Shown here: positions 12,919-18,719 of the stretch, one piece after another | Layout: each line of letters starts with the position of its first letter | Numbering within the stretch: the first letter of the stretch is position 1 | Origin: a virus | Virus record (IMG/VR): IMGVR_UViG_3300022602_000280 | Coordinates: 1 to 32,807 of that record | DNA length: 32,807 nt | Reading direction: 5' to 3' (one strand) | The notes under the pieces: generated by a model | Told to the model about the DNA's origin: nothing | The model's input: only the letters and a program-made list of their open reading frames with translations | Databases searched by the model: none | Position numbers and translations under genes: made by a program

Positions 12919-13704
12919 TCAAACGAGTTGAGTAGTTAATGCTTTAGAAAATAATTCAAAATATAAATTATTTGATTTAATACCAGGATGTAAATCATCA
13001 GGATTGGTATCAATTTTTAGTGATGCCATTGAGTTATATAAATTTAACCAACAAGATTGATTGATACTTCCTGCATCATTTAACTTATTGTGCAATTTTT
13101 CATATAGTTGACAAACTTCTTTGCTATTTCTAGTATCTGCATCCAAAATCATTTGAGTATATTTTGTATATTGATTTGGTTCTAGATTGTTTTTCTTTGT
13201 AAAAAAATCTTCGTCCCAAGGACAAAGGCCATTTATGAAAAACGCCTTGGCTCCTATTAAATTTGCTAATTTTACTATTGAATTTGTGTATTCAACAATG
13301 TTTAAAATTTCTGGAAGAGGATGAGCTAGTGTTAAAAATCTATCACGTATTGAATTTAGATATGTTTTGCTGTAATTTAATAAATGAAGATTATGATCAA
13401 GGCATTCAACATTTGGAATAAAAAATTGTTTAGTGGCATACAATTCAAATCCTAATTCTAGTTCGTGTCTATTTAAACTGGTCCATTGTACTATAATATA
13501 CTCAACTGGATAAGATACCAGTGCTTTTATGGTATCTTGAAAAATTCCTGCATTTGATCTACCAGCTGCACCTACATTAAGTTTGATAGTGTTTGAAAAA
13601 AAATTATTGTATATTTGATTTACCCACAATGATGGCTCGTTTTTAGTTAATTCAAATCCTTCACCTTGGGTCAACGAACACCCGGAAAAAACAGTGTATT
13701 TCAT
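12919..13704 (-). CDS. SGNH-hydrolase-like protein
   Basis: This 261-residue protein has the SGNH/GDSL-type block order. Block I is FSGCSLTQGEGF with S10 as the likely nucleophile. Block II is NVGAAGRSNAG with a Gly and N51. Block III is IVQWTSLNRHE. Near the C-terminus, DDLHPG supplies the D-x-x-H pair (D236, H239). The family contains esterases and acetyl-hydrolases, often acting on acylated sugars. The gene is AT-rich, ends the gp26 operon and overlaps the previous gene by 4 nt (ATGA-type). A role in removing surface acyl groups is possible but inferred. It could also be an inactive structural relative. Confidence 0.68.
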   Translation of the reverse strand: MKYTVFSGCSLTQGEGFELTKNEPSLWVNQIYNNFFSNTIKLNVGAAGRSNAGIFQDTIKALVSYPVEYIIVQWTSLNRHELELGFELYATKQFFIPNVECLDHNLHLLNYSKTYLNSIRDRFLTLAHPLPEILNIVEYTNSIVKLANLIGAKAFFINGLCPWDEDFFTKKNNLEPNQYTKYTQMILDADTRNSKEVCQLYEKLHNKLNDAGSINQSCWLNLYNSMASLKIDTNPDDLHPGIKSNNLYFELFSKALTTQLV

Positions 13705-14036
13705 AAATTTTGGTCAGGCCAATCTCTAAATAAGGCATGCTGTATATTGCCGCTGACAAATTGATTAAATGATTTGTGTTTCTCTTCAAGGTCGCCTTTG
13801 AGTGGTGCTACTCTTTTAAACGCAGAATCCATTTGACCCATATCCTTAAATTCCATGATAATCATCCATTCAGGCATATCAGCAATGCTACGAAATCCCA
13901 TTTTACAACGAGTTATTCTGTAGTTTTCCATTCGGCCTTCCGAAATTAAATGATCAAAAAAACTTTTCATTCCGTTGACCCATTCAACATCAGTAATATC
14001 ACCTTCTTTGTCTGCCCAAATTGTATATAAATCCAT
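13701..14036 (-). CDS. Small DUF6614-like protein
   Basis: This 111-residue protein has a beta-alpha-beta pattern typical of ferredoxin-like or dimeric alpha/beta-barrel folds: an N-terminal LYTIWADKEG strand, a helix ending in FFDHLISEGRM, a YRITRCKMGF strand, a WMIIMEFKDM strand, then MDSAFKRVAPLKG and a closing helix with ALFRDWPD. The overall pattern matches my recollection of DUF6614, a small family of marine bacteria; I could not verify it. It sits 3 nt from its neighbours in the minus-strand operon. Function unknown. Confidence 0.6.
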   Translation of the reverse strand: MDLYTIWADKEGDITDVEWVNGMKSFFDHLISEGRMENYRITRCKMGFRSIADMPEWMIIMEFKDMGQMDSAFKRVAPLKGDLEEKHKSFNQFVSGNIQHALFRDWPDQNL

Positions 14037-14038
14037 GG

Positions 14039-14482
14039 TTACTCCAGTGGTCCTAGTATTTCAAATCCATCAAGTTCAGATTTGTACAGATGTGCTTGCT
14101 CAAGGTACAAGTATTTGAATCCTCGCTCCTTGTATATTGCACACTCTGTTTTCATAGTTTCAATTCCTAAACGTAGTCTAGGTTGATGATATGTCCATGC
14201 AAATTGATCGCATAGTGCATTGTGTTGATCAAAGCGTCGAATTAGGCTCCACGCCACAAGTTTATTATTATCGTAGTATCCAATGACATCAGCCATTGGG
14301 TCTTGATATCTACTGTGAAACATGGGCATGACACTGGCAAAGTGTTTGTAGATACTGTATGTTCTATAGATATCATCTAGCTTGTTTAGTGTTGCTTTGT
14401 CACGATCTGTAATATATTTCCATGCTACACTAGGAGAGTATTCAGTTTTGGCAAGATTAATTCTAGCAAATTGATATGTCAT
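14039..14482 (-). CDS. GNAT-like hypothetical protein
   Basis: I prefer ATG at 14482 (147 residues, MTYQFARINL), because it overlaps the stop of the upstream gene in the ATGA manner; a longer in-frame start at 14536 would run 54 nt into that gene. The central strand pair DVIGYYDNNKLVAWSLIRRF, the later GIETMKTECAIYKERGFKYL helix and a YLYLEQ strand suggest an acetyltransferase-like (GNAT) fold, though the acetyl-CoA loop is not obvious. It ends FEILGPLE. Function not established. Confidence 0.62.
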   Translation of the reverse strand: MTYQFARINLAKTEYSPSVAWKYITDRDKATLNKLDDIYRTYSIYKHFASVMPMFHSRYQDPMADVIGYYDNNKLVAWSLIRRFDQHNALCDQFAWTYHQPRLRLGIETMKTECAIYKERGFKYLYLEQAHLYKSELDGFEILGPLE

Positions 14483-14985
14483 AGTCCAGGATCCTGCCGA
14501 TGTTTGAACAATGATTTCAAGTATTCTTTGGGCCATGAGTCATAAAAGCCTTTGGCGGCTATTTGTTTGGCTCGGGCATCAAGATCACTCAGGCTCTGTA
14601 CCAAGGCAAGTGCATAAGTTCCTTGATTCATTGTTACACCGTTGACTATCTCTGGATCTGTAGGATGATCCTCCAAGGCCAACATGTCTCGGCGTAATAA
14701 ACATTCTTCGTTGGCCTGTGAGATACTGGCACTAAACAATTCATAAGTCCATTCTGCAGGATCATATGCATACACTATAACTTCGTACTGGCCCATGCCC
14801 CACTTGCTGCGATTTCGTAAATCATAATAGGGATCCTGGCCTGTAAAAATTCCCACTGTGTTTTTTAATCTTGCACTGCGAGCATACGGACAAGGCGGCC
14901 AGCCTCCTAGTGCTGGATGCGGACGCTCTACAAAGTTCTCACTCCAGGACAAAATATCTCTACGTACTTGTTCTTGATCTAACAT
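14479..14985 (-). CDS. Hypothetical protein with WPPCPYAR motif
   Basis: This 168-residue soluble protein is unrecognised in function. Its N-terminal region has the distinctive ALGGWPPCPYARSARL segment at about residues 25-40, which resembles the CP-[FY]-A signature of small uncharacterised bacterial proteins. The rest is mixed alpha/beta with a long acidic middle helix (ISQANEECLLRRDMLALED). The start follows the frameshift-ORF stop by 1 nt and the stop overlaps the next gene, so translation is coupled. Host-like gene content inside a tail-chaperone operon suggests acquired cargo. Confidence 0.6.
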   Translation of the reverse strand: MLDQEQVRRDILSWSENFVERPHPALGGWPPCPYARSARLKNTVGIFTGQDPYYDLRNRSKWGMGQYEVIVYAYDPAEWTYELFSASISQANEECLLRRDMLALEDHPTDPEIVNGVTMNQGTYALALVQSLSDLDARAKQIAAKGFYDSWPKEYLKSLFKHRQDPGL

Positions 14986-14986
14986 G

Positions 14987-15217
14987 TTAAAAAAATGGAA
15001 GTCCTGATTTTTTGGTAGTTTCCATGTTGTCTTTGATTATCTGCCCAATCATTTCTTTTTCACTGACACTGAGTTGCAGAGCTTGCTCGTAGCTGATACC
15101 GCCTCGCATGTACCAAGCCATTTGCAACGCCTCCCGCCGGATATTTTTTATATCTTTGTCCATCTGATCTACAATTTTACCAATTGTGTCAGCGTCCGAG
15201 ACTAGGAGGCGGGTACG
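14987..15217 (-). CDS. Minus-one frame extension of gp26 (tail-assembly chaperone-like)
   Basis: This 76-codon frame is open from the end of gp26 to TAA at 14989-14987. It reads RTRLLVSDADTIGKIV at its start, then IRREALQMAWYMRGGISY, SVSEKEMIGQIIKDN and TTKKSGLPFF at the end. It has no good start of its own: the first ATG is at 15163, with no Shine-Dalgarno, and would drop 18 residues. It is in the -1 frame relative to gp26 and joins it exactly at a T-TTT-TTC slippery heptamer, giving a 351-residue fusion. The protein looks real (helical, charged, conserved-looking ending) and probably contacts the tape measure or baseplate hub. An unmarked independent start remains possible. Confidence 0.68.
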   Translation of the reverse strand, partial: RTRLLVSDADTIGKIVDQMDKDIKNIRREALQMAWYMRGGISYEQALQLSVSEKEMIGQIIKDNMETTKKSGLPFF

Positions 15218-16041
15218 AAAAAAGTTGACATGTCCAAACTAACTGATTGCTCGTATTCGTGTGTGCACTCGTCACACACTATTTTCATAGGTTGCATTTC
15301 GGCTTGCGCTTTTAATTTTATAATGTGATCTCTGATTTGTGTAAACAAGTTGCGATCACAGTTCTTTAGGAATTCTTCTATGTATTCTGGCTCACTGACC
15401 ATGGCAGTGGGCGTTTTGATTGTGGCCACACTTTGTGCCAAAGCCGACACTGTGATATCTGTGATTTTTTTCATGGCTGCAGTCAGTGCAGTCATTTTGT
15501 CATTGTTGTTCATTTCAGTGTTGGGCAGGATCTGCAACAGTTTTTGATTTTCAAACTGCATTTGATTGTTGTCGTTGAGATTTCTATAATTCATGGGTCT
15601 GAAGTAGATCTCAACGTCACCAGCTCTAATGCTTTCACCGTAATTGGGTGCAGAAATTCTGTCTAGCACAGTTCTTAGATCAACTGATCTGTCACTGGTT
15701 GCAGCACATTTTGGACATTTGGTATCAAATTCCATGTCGTGCCCGTAGCTGGCAATGCGTATGGCAATTAGTATAGCATCCACATCCATGGCCGGAACTG
15801 CCCATCCATTGACAATGTTGGGCATGCAACTTTCAATCACATTCACAGTGGCTTGCCCGTTGAACAAGGCATCGGGAGTTCTGTAGGTTATTTCGTCGAT
15901 GGCAGTCATGGGCAACACAGGTAATTCTCCGGTGTCAGTCATGGTCAGTGTGCCAGGCGGATAAAACTGTCCGTTGCTGGGCAATCGGATGTAGATTGCA
16001 GGTTGTCTAAAATACTGTTGAAGCGGGTTGTTTGATGGCAT
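15202..16041 (-). CDS. 26: Baseplate hub/tail assembly protein, gp26-like
   Basis: This 279-residue protein matches T4 gp26 (T4 base-plate protein family) from its first residues: NNPLQQYFRQPAIYIRLPS, then LPVLPMTAIDEITYRTPDAL, FNGQATVNVIESCMPNIVNG and MDVDAILIAIRIASYG. It has a likely zinc site, CPKC (about residue 108) and CDEC (about 258), which suggests a ribbon between helices. It is longer than T4 gp26 (208). AGGA lies 6 nt before the start. The gene is divergent from the tape measure, 23 nt away. The last codons contain a frameshift heptamer; without slippage the chain ends FFVPAS. Confidence 0.85.
   Translation of the reverse strand: MPSNNPLQQYFRQPAIYIRLPSNGQFYPPGTLTMTDTGELPVLPMTAIDEITYRTPDALFNGQATVNVIESCMPNIVNGWAVPAMDVDAILIAIRIASYGHDMEFDTKCPKCAATSDRSVDLRTVLDRISAPNYGESIRAGDVEIYFRPMNYRNLNDNNQMQFENQKLLQILPNTEMNNNDKMTALTAAMKKITDITVSALAQSVATIKTPTAMVSEPEYIEEFLKNCDRNLFTQIRDHIIKLKAQAEMQPMKIVCDECTHEYEQSVSLDMSTFFVPAS
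15217..15223 (-). other. Putative -1 ribosomal frameshift heptamer
   Basis: On the minus strand the gp26 frame reads ACT TTT TTC GTA, which places T-TTT-TTC (X-XXY-YYZ) in the correct phase for tandem slippage. After a -1 shift the next codons are CGT ACC CGC, opening 76 codons up to 14987. The zero frame stops four codons later. No strong downstream stem is present; the clearest is a weak AT stem, ACAATT/AATTGT at 15171-15187. Confidence 0.65.
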
Positions 16042-16053
16042 GGTCGTCCTCGG

Positions 16054-16064: not shown

Positions 16065-18719
16065 ATGACTGATCGCTACACCCAAGAAGAAATCCAAGAA
16101 ATCGCTGACAACTATGCCAACGCATTAAAATCTGGCATTGAGCCCACGGCTGACATGACCCGTGAAATGAAAGATGCCGCAGTTGGTATCAAAGGCTATA
16201 CTGCAGCAGTCGAATCGGCTAAAAAACAATTTGTTTCTAGTTTAGGTAAAATTGCAGGCGATCTTGGCACTGCCATGTACAAAGGCACCAAGGGTGCAGG
16301 TGTCTTAGGAGACGCAGCCGAACAAGCAGGAACTGCACTAGAAGTCATGATCTTGAACATACCCGGAATTGGTCTGGCAGCCAAAGCAGCCGCAGTGGCC
16401 ATTGGTTTGTTTGCCAAAGGCGTCAACATGGCCGCCAAGCAAGGCGATGCACTGTACAAAAGCTATCAAGAACTTGGCAAAAGCGGCCAAGGGGCCGCAG
16501 GCGGTATCACTGATGTGTTCAACAGCATGCAGAAGTTGGGCTACGGAATTGAAGAACTGGATTCAGCAGTTAAATTATTGACCGGTCACTCTACAGATTT
16601 AGCTACATTTAGCGGTACTGCAGCTTCAGGAGCACAAGCATTTGCAGATTCAATGAAAGGTATCACACACGGGCCTTTCTTGGAAGAAATGATGAATCTG
16701 GGCAAAACAGTTGACGACCTCAATGCCGCTGGTGCATCATATGTCAAACAACAAGTGCTCATGGGCCGCAGTCAACGAGATGTGCAAGGTACTCAGACTG
16801 AACGTACCATGGCCTACATTAAATCTCTGGATACCCTGCAGAGATTAACTGGACAAAGCGCAGAAGCTTTGGAAAAACAACAAGAAGAAGCCTTGGATGA
16901 CGATGCCTATAATATCTACATGGAGCGATTGGAACAAAGTGGCAAAGCAGGACAAGAACAAGCGCAAAAAATAAAAGAATCATTGGCAATGTTAGATCCA
17001 AGCATACAAAAATTAGCCAGAGCGGGTATTGGTGGTAATGTCGGAGCTCAAGGCGAGCTGATGAACATGATGCCAAACTTTATTAAAGATTTGCGAGATC
17101 AAAATATGTCTCGCGATCAGACTCTTGCCAATGCCAACAAAGATCTTATAACATTCAAAGACAGATTTGGCGACAACTATATGCAGGCCGCTGATTCAAT
17201 GGAAGGCTTTGGCGTACATGTAACAGCCATAAACAAAACTATTGGGCAAACTGGCAATCTCAAAGAGCGTGAAGCATATGCTGCCAAAGAAAAAGAAATG
17301 CACGATGATGCTACAAAAAATCTTACTGCGACACAGATTGCGCAAATGAACACTAGAGACAGTTTACAAAGTTTAGTGCAACTGGGTGTAGCTCCAGTGA
17401 CTACGGCCTTCAGCAATCTTGCAGATGTGGTAGCGGATTTGACCAGTATGTTGCCAGGTGGAAAAAGTCGACCTGGCAAAGGACTCAGTGCACCTGCACC
17501 AGAATTGGGTGCACATGGCACAGGTACACGAGGCGGAAGACTAGCGGCCACTGGAGCTGGAGCGGTAGCTGGCGCAACATACGGAGCCACCCTTGGCACT
17601 GCTATTCCTATCCCGCTTGTTGGCACTGGCATTGGTGCAACAGTAGGCGGTATTATCGGCGGTATTACAGGCTATTTAGGTTATAGTAACTTTGGTGGAG
17701 CACTAGACAAACCAGAAAATTATTTAAAATTTACCGGCGAAAGCGGGTCAGTGGCTAATTTTGAGCAACTGGATCCCAATGTTCAACGGCAAATCATGGC
17801 TGCTGGCAAGGCCTACTCAGAAATGACAGGAGGCCAAAAACTCATAATCAACAGTGCCAAGCGTACCACAGAAAAACAAACTCAACTTTATAATGATTGG
17901 CTGGCCAACGGCAAACGTGGCAATCCTGTGGCACCTCCTGGCCGTAGTGCGCACGAGTCAGGGCTAGCAGTAGATATCGAACAAGGCAAAGGCGATAACA
18001 ACGCAATCTCTGCGCTGAATCAAGCTGGCCTGTATCAAACAGTGCCCAACGATCCTGTGCACTTTCAGCCCAAAGGAGCGCCACCAGAAGCAGCCATGGA
18101 ATATGGTGGTATTGTTCGAGCTAGACCGGGTGGAACCAATATTCTAGCAGGCGAAGCCGGGGATGACGAAGCATTTGTGCCCTTGCGTGGTGGCAAGATT
18201 CCTGTGGACATTAAAAATTCTAGTTTTATTAAAGAATTCACACGTGATATTCTTGGCAATATAGGAATGGATCAACCGCAAAGATCTGGTGTAACGGCCA
18301 GAGAAGGAGTGGAAAATCTTAGATTATTACTGCCAGAATTTAGTCAAGCTATCTCTGGCAGTATGGGCAATATTCAAGAAGTTCAAGCTGCATCAATAAT
18401 GTCGTCAGTTAAAACCACTCTAGATAACTTTGTCAAAACAAAAATGCCTAATCCTGGTGATTTTGCTGGCAGTTCAGTGTTGCCAAATTTCAACAAAGCA
18501 TTGCCCGAAACAGACACTGCAACCATGTTGTCTGACAGAACTGACAAACTCACACAACAGTTGGCCAAATTGGAAAAACTGCCAGTGGCTGCAGGTGGTT
18601 CTGACAACTCACAGCAACTGGCACTGATGAGTCAACAGCTAAACAAACTGGACGAACTGGTCAGAGTCATGAACAGTCAGCTAAATGTATCGGGAAAGAT
18701 ATTGGCTTACCAACACTGA
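16065..18719 (+). CDS. Tape-measure-like tail protein with M15 peptidase domain
   Basis: I take ATG at 16065 (884 residues). The open frame begins 33 nt earlier, inside the divergent gp26 start region. The protein is a long helical chain rich in A, G, K and Q, with a hydrophobic helix near 90-120 and a glycine-zipper stretch near 500-540 (GTGIGATVGGIIGGITGYLG) that could insert into membrane. At about 595-670 there is an M15 D-Ala-D-Ala peptidase: SAHESGLAVDIE gives the His and Asp zinc ligands, and DPVHFQP the final His. A typical tape-measure tail region follows (ARPGGTNILAGEAGDDEAF). It should set tail length and cut peptidoglycan at entry. T4 gp29 (590 residues) lacks this domain. Neighbouring gp26 and its frameshift product fit. 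Confidence 0.82.
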   Translation: MTDRYTQEEIQEIADNYANALKSGIEPTADMTREMKDAAVGIKGYTAAVESAKKQFVSSLGKIAGDLGTAMYKGTKGAGVLGDAAEQAGTALEVMILNIPGIGLAAKAAAVAIGLFAKGVNMAAKQGDALYKSYQELGKSGQGAAGGITDVFNSMQKLGYGIEELDSAVKLLTGHSTDLATFSGTAASGAQAFADSMKGITHGPFLEEMMNLGKTVDDLNAAGASYVKQQVLMGRSQRDVQGTQTERTMAYIKSLDTLQRLTGQSAEALEKQQEEALDDDAYNIYMERLEQSGKAGQEQAQKIKESLAMLDPSIQKLARAGIGGNVGAQGELMNMMPNFIKDLRDQNMSRDQTLANANKDLITFKDRFGDNYMQAADSMEGFGVHVTAINKTIGQTGNLKEREAYAAKEKEMHDDATKNLTATQIAQMNTRDSLQSLVQLGVAPVTTAFSNLADVVADLTSMLPGGKSRPGKGLSAPAPELGAHGTGTRGGRLAATGAGAVAGATYGATLGTAIPIPLVGTGIGATVGGIIGGITGYLGYSNFGGALDKPENYLKFTGESGSVANFEQLDPNVQRQIMAAGKAYSEMTGGQKLIINSAKRTTEKQTQLYNDWLANGKRGNPVAPPGRSAHESGLAVDIEQGKGDNNAISALNQAGLYQTVPNDPVHFQPKGAPPEAAMEYGGIVRARPGGTNILAGEAGDDEAFVPLRGGKIPVDIKNSSFIKEFTRDILGNIGMDQPQRSGVTAREGVENLRLLLPEFSQAISGSMGNIQEVQAASIMSSVKTTLDNFVKTKMPNPGDFAGSSVLPNFNKALPETDTATMLSDRTDKLTQQLAKLEKLPVAAGGSDNSQQLALMSQQLNKLDELVRVMNSQLNVSGKILAYQH

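Follow-up and report, generated by a model that had tools for sequence, protein, structure and literature searches.

The gp26-like gene of this T4-type phage most probably encodes a G/GT-type pair of tail-assembly chaperones, in which both a short and a long form would be made from one gene by programmed -1 frameshifting at its 3' end. We give this reading a probability of about 0.92; the slippage, its efficiency and the chaperone role are what we infer from the sequence. The window (the whole stretch of DNA that was analysed, 32,807 nucleotides) derives from a phage of the T4 superfamily, as judged by a gp20-type portal, a gp23-type head protein, a late sigma factor and a gp46-type nuclease subunit, and no near-identical cultured phage was found. 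An earlier note on this DNA had proposed that a programmed -1 frameshift fuses gp26 to a 76-codon extension. The slippery site, its phase, a conserved coding extension and a conserved RNA stem now lend support to that proposal.

The main features of the locus are the following.

16065-18719, plus strand: tape-measure-like gene, divergent from gp26, 884 aa from its ATG, with Gly-rich hydrophobic stretches and a VanY-type peptidase domain
16047-16051, minus strand: Shine-Dalgarno sequence of gp26, GAGGA
15202-16041, minus strand: gp26-like baseplate-hub/tail-assembly-chaperone gene, with a zero-frame short product of 279 aa
15217-15223, minus strand: in-phase slippery heptamer, U UUU UUC (ACU UUU UUC), recognised by sequence and conservation
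14987-15217, minus strand: -1 frame extension, 76 codons and TAA, with base 15217 read twice
14987-16041, minus strand: predicted long fusion, 351 aa (275 + 76), deduced from both frames together with the heptamer

The gp26 gene, its slippery site and the -1 extension

The gp26 product belongs to the PF12322 (T4_baseplate) family, against which it scores 54.7 bits (curated cut-off 24.5), and it matches PHROG 150 (baseplate hub) with an E-value of 5.7e-16. Its AlphaFold2 model (pLDDT 86) shares the fold of phage hub proteins: the best Foldseek match in BFVD, at E 1.3e-24, is 'Baseplate hub assembly protein, bacteriophage T4-like', with other hub proteins among the remaining matches. Alignment of the model to PDB entries gives scores only at the helical-bundle level (Z at most 7.8), which is uninformative. 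In the window clade, gp26 carries two invariant CxxC pairs (C109/C112 and C256/C259), which suggests a metal site.

The ATG of the tape-measure-like gene (16065) is 23 nt from the gp26 start, in the position and divergent orientation described in the earlier note. The naming of this gene depends on its features and not on a strong family match. An N-terminal relative of its product is present in 36 of the 63 relatives with enough upstream DNA, and in all 36 it is divergent and upstream of gp26. The VanY/endolysin-type peptidase domain (about residues 547–671) resembles putative peptidases of Campylobacter phages. The minus-strand genes that follow gp26 include 14479-14985, which overlaps 14039-14536 by 58 nt, and 13701-14036, which encodes a DUF6614 protein (E 1.6e-21).

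The 3' end of gp26 reads ATG TCA ACT TTT TTC GTA CCC GCC TCC TAG, with ACT at 15225-15223, TTT at 15222-15220, TTC at 15219-15217 and TAG at 15204-15202. The heptamer is in the X XXY YYZ phase, exactly as needed for -1 tandem slippage, and is located four codons ahead of the stop; the coordinates, codon counts and phase given in the earlier note are all correct.

The earlier note had named conservation of the heptamer and of the -1 phase across relatives as a check on its proposal. Relatives were collected twice, with the extension and, independently, with gp26 alone. This produced 157 loci with a readable junction (some contigs are counted twice), from which a non-redundant set of 71 sequences with extensions <90% identical was derived. 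Of the 157 loci, 77 were recruited by gp26 similarity alone, so that this part of the sample is not biased by the extension or the heptamer. An in-phase T TTT TTC followed by a -1 extension is present in 157/157 loci, those recruited by gp26 alone included, with one of them carrying T TTT TTT. The non-redundant set contains TTTTTTC in 70/71 sequences and TTTTTTT in 1/71, and its members reach down to 30% gp26 identity. The codon ahead of the heptamer varies (AGT, AAT, GAT, ACT, GGT, CTT or CGT, encoding Ser, Asn, Asp, Thr, Gly, Leu or Arg), and its final T is always kept. The gp26 stop also moves among relatives (3, 9 or 12 nt past the heptamer), while the site and the extension stay in register. 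Given independent codon choice at the genes' own codon usage, a heptamer universal in sequence and phase in 71 relatives has a chance probability of ~1e-32, a figure that is overstated since the relatives are not independent. The conclusion that, by these alignments, the conservation of the heptamer is not due to chance does not hang on it. Close to the 3' end of the short-form gene, a conserved slippery site is in phase to join a second frame.

Matching junctions are found in the cultured jumbo T4-type phages Atu_ph07, Phosso, RaK2, PA5oct, BF, Munch, CBB, XbC2 and Kaldavass, and in XacN1, another cultured jumbo T4-type phage, in the form T TTT TTT. P-SSM2, S-PM2, HTVC008M, Cr30, phiM12 and KVP40 share the junction, three of the six as T TTT TTT. 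In cyanophage-type contigs, collected by a gp26 profile search alone, TTTTTTC is located 3 nt ahead of the stop in 80/80 cases. None of the annotated records examined marks a frameshift; the extension appears there as a separate hypothetical protein, as gp51, or is unannotated. The gp26 homologue of Rhodothermus phage RM378 ends TCC TTT TTT TGG AAT AAG TTA TGA, and the frame that stays open beyond it is +1 (or -2), not -1, possibly reflecting a different direction of shift.

Past the slip point, the -1 frame of the window reads FF-RTRLLVSDADTIGKIVDQMDKDIKNIRREALQMAWYMRGGISYEQALQLSVSEKEMIGQIIKDNMETTKKSGLPFF. It is 231 nt long including the stop, from the re-read C at 15217 to TAA at 14989-14987. 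The claim that this frame is open for 76 codons and encodes a plausible protein holds, and relatives provide a coding signal: substitution past the gp26 stop is 0.27, 0.15 and 0.56 at codon positions 1, 2 and 3 of the -1 frame. By this excess of third- over second-position change, the extension evolves as a protein-coding frame. In relatives, it usually comprises 71–75 codons beyond the gp26 stop, and its relatives are detectable down to about 28–40% identity. The AlphaFold2 model of the extension is all-helical (pLDDT 92). On its own, the extension has no significant match among PHROG, Pfam and PDB profiles. In BFVD, a fold search yields a number of small phage proteins with probability 1.0 but E-values of at least 7e-3, and TAC-named matches appear only at E >3 and were given no weight. 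Joined to the 275 residues encoded up to the slip point, the 76 codons would give the fusion of about 351 residues that had been predicted. Its junction would be ..MSTFF-RTR.., compared with ..MSTFFVPAS for the zero-frame product.

Putative RNA signals flanking the heptamer

The lack of an obvious strong stem, initially seen as a weakness of the frameshift proposal, does not stand. A stem with the two arms listed below is present in the window and conserved, and pairing covaries in a sister clade.

15204-15211, minus strand: 5' arm of the putative stimulatory stem, CGCCUCCU (also written CGCCTCCT), 5 nt past the heptamer
15128-15135, minus strand: 3' arm of the stem, GGGAGGCG, pairing with the 5' arm over its full length with one G-U

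The arms enclose further helices, and in the window the 95 nt fold at -29.8 kcal/mol (z -3.3 relative to dinucleotide shuffles). Averaged over the 71 relatives, the 95-nt folding z-score is -2.33 directly past the heptamer, and six other offsets give values from -0.7 to 0. The score of the best contiguous helix peaks exactly 6 nt past the heptamer (19.5 against a background of 9.1 +/- 1.0 in the same 71 relatives). By sequence and folding, then, an RNA structure is positioned a few nucleotides 3' of the slippery site. Its 5' arm is fixed 4–6 nt past the heptamer in most relatives, whereas the position of the 3' arm depends on the clade (about +17, +36, +47–51, +60, +71 or +81–85 nt). As the 3' arm relocates between clades, different sequences must build the same element. 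About 10 of the 71 relatives have no stem that rises above background at the fixed position, and 13 of the 71 do not surpass the top 5% of their own background.

In a divergent sister clade, neither pairing nor covariation is equalled by any of 500 shuffles (0/500) or by any slid control. In the window clade, most stem pairs are invariant, leaving little variation for a covariation test. The GCCTC of the 5' arm is the same in 31/31 relatives of this clade, and all 31 use GAG for the Glu codon of the 3' arm, compared with 25% GAG and 75% GAA at other Glu codons of the extension.

Cyanophage-type sites are organised differently. All 80 of them carry a Shine-Dalgarno-like G/AAGG 9–10 nt upstream of the heptamer, within an LEGL motif, whereas such a motif is found in 0/71 of the window-type sites. 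As far as sequence motifs define it, the cyanophage-type layout is that of a site stimulated by an internal Shine-Dalgarno sequence.

Other routes to the extension

The extension might instead be a separate gene, as gp51 is annotated to be in cyanophages and KVP40, with translation beginning at a start of its own or resuming past the gp26 stop by reinitiation. We consider this very unlikely. The first start to be weighed is the following.

15161-15163, minus strand: first possible start in the -1 frame, ATG, which would give 58 aa and has no Shine-Dalgarno sequence

This ATG exists, and Met is common at its position in the window clade. In Atu_ph07 and Phosso an ATG overlaps the gp26 stop, and the cyanophage gp51 is annotated as a CDS of its own. 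However, ATG 15163 is 18 codons past the shift point, inside the conserved extension, with the conserved FR.RLL residues upstream of it, and the sequence that precedes it (GGTAAAATTGTAGATCAG) contains no Shine-Dalgarno. The -1 ORF of 23 of the 71 relatives lacks any ATG, GTG or TTG from its beginning to codon 20 of the extension. These results agree with the earlier claim that the extension has no start equipped with a Shine-Dalgarno sequence. With the conserved phase of the heptamer, the outcome favours the frameshift on both of the refuting conditions that the earlier note had named. Upstream, the -1 frame is blocked by a stop 15 nt from the window heptamer, and in several relatives it is closed immediately 5' of the heptamer. 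Reinitiation would select neither an in-phase U UUU UUC nor a stem at a fixed spacing of 5–6 nt. Atu_ph07, Phosso and nearly all cyanophage-type relatives do have a start codon close to the junction, and in those phages the extension may also be initiated separately or by coupling.

RNA polymerase, and not the ribosome, could slip on the T run and make a frame-shifted mRNA. The run of six T, extended to T7–T8 in Cr30 and HTVC008M, is what would speak for such an event, but six T are short for transcriptional slippage, and evolution has kept the TTC ending and the phase, not a longer homopolymer. The spacing of the stem is that of ribosomal -1 sites, and the Shine-Dalgarno-like motif is conserved upstream of every cyanophage-type site. 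We consider polymerase slippage very unlikely as well. An assembly error or a decayed frame, i.e. a single ORF of gp26 and extension broken by an indel, might be suspected as a single-base shift would join both frames, and is refuted by the two-frame arrangement in every relative, in many independent assemblies and in the genomes of cultured phages.

With programmed -1 frameshifting as the preferred reading, most ribosomes would translate gp26 to its UAG and release the short form. A minority would pause at the stem-loop 5–6 nt beyond U UUU UUC and slip back by one base on the two Phe codons, with UUU UUC re-paired as UUU UUU. The shifted ribosomes would then read 76 more codons, giving the long form with its helical C-terminal domain.

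T4 gp26/gp51 and other chaperone systems

PF12322 and PHROG 150, the families of the window gp26, contain both T4 gp26 (short) and T4 gp51 (long). PHROG 150 is covered from position 3 to 281 by gp51 and from 10 to 236 by gp26, and in S-PM2, P-SSM2, HTVC008M, Cr30 and phiM12 its part at about 227–281 is encoded directly downstream in the other (-1) frame. The cyanophage/KVP40 extension matches residues 207–244 of T4 gp51 (E 2.6e-5). This match and the PHROG 150 coverage show that the short and the long gene of T4 correspond to one gene with a -1 site in these relatives. The window-type gp26 is clearly homologous to the cyanophage-type gp26 (E 2e-8). The window extension matches the cyanophage extensions marginally in a profile comparison (P 0.016), in the same register; it has no profile match to the C-terminus of T4 gp51, with which it is equated by position.

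T4 encodes both a short and a long form of the same family, as is predicted for the window. Unlike the window, where one gene carries a -1 site, it has two divergent genes, 26 and 51, and gene 26 ends without a slippery site. T4 gp26 ends in GLKEFFELL at the point where the slippery site of its relatives encodes FF; the stretch is encoded by GAG TTC TTT GAG and looks like a slippery site that has been lost. Campylobacter phage F360 has a tandem pair of PF12322 genes, similar to T4 26/51, of which one is short and the other has an extra C-terminal tail, with no obvious slippery site. With two genes, T4 and Campylobacter phages do without the frameshift.

In cyanophages and KVP40, the ORF called 'gp51 baseplate hub assembly catalyst' lies where the window has its extension: it follows a conserved T TTT TTC and is read in the -1 frame. 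A counterpart of the extension was already known in these phages, but as a separate gene 51.

A conserved frameshift of long-tailed phages was reportedly described by Xu, Hendrix and Duda in 2004. In lambda, G and GT are a short form and a -1 extended form encoded near the tape-measure gene, and the slippery site is G GGA AAG. The window is predicted to have the same two forms near a tape-measure-like gene, and no sequence relation of its gp26 to lambda G/GT was detected. The window gp26 is larger than its lambda counterpart, has the two CxxC pairs and uses U UUU UUC, and its tape-measure-like gene is divergent, whereas that of lambda is downstream.

The statement that no such arrangement had been reported for a T4-type gp26 was too strong. 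T4 gp26 and gp51 were identified as tail-assembly chaperones by Vladimirov, Gautam and Davidson in 2022 (doi 10.1016/j.virol.2021.11.003, as cited in PMC10885494 and PMC12846349), in a paper whose title proposes a non-frameshift mechanism for T4-like phages. According to the PRFect paper (PMC10885494), which draws on that study, a short gene and a longer, fused one are both present in some T4-like phages. PMC12846349 credits the same study with poly-T slippery sequences in T4-like chaperone homologues, and the frameshift version has thus probably been recognised in some T4-like phages. A literature search for a frameshift in T4-like hub genes returned no direct match, and this prior art was reached via the PRFect paper (PMC10885494). 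The TACs of Vandenendeviridae and Andersonviridae, which are different phage families, also end in a poly-T slippery site (GTTTTT motif) with a -1 extension of >200 nt (PMC12846349). No homology between these TACs and the window extension was found; the tape-measure chaperone of Citrobacter phage Moogle is present only in the fold list, at E 3.5. Given the prior reports, the class of system is known, and what is added here is the lineage, the breadth of its distribution, the stems and the existence of two types of stimulator.

On the model of lambda G/GT, the role of the short form would be to coat the tape-measure protein, and that of the long form, through its C-terminal domain, to bring in the tube protein, so a fixed ratio of the two would matter. 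We lean towards the view that short and long chaperones made by frameshifting are a widespread and probably ancestral state of the T4 superfamily, found in cyanophages, pelagiphages, KVP40, rhizobial phages, jumbo phages and this metagenomic lineage. T4 26/51 and the Campylobacter tandem pair would then be derived duplications that fixed both isoforms, and the stimulator would evolve with its 5' arm in place, its 3' arm jumping and an internal Shine-Dalgarno exchanged for a long-range stem. Many proteins annotated as 'hypothetical protein' or 'gp51' in T4-type and jumbo phages would become the C-terminal part of a frameshift product. These sites, with the same heptamer and different stimulators, would form a natural series of recoding sites for comparison. 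The direct contrast with T4, which has a gene of its own for each of the two chaperone forms, could make the need for a fixed ratio testable.
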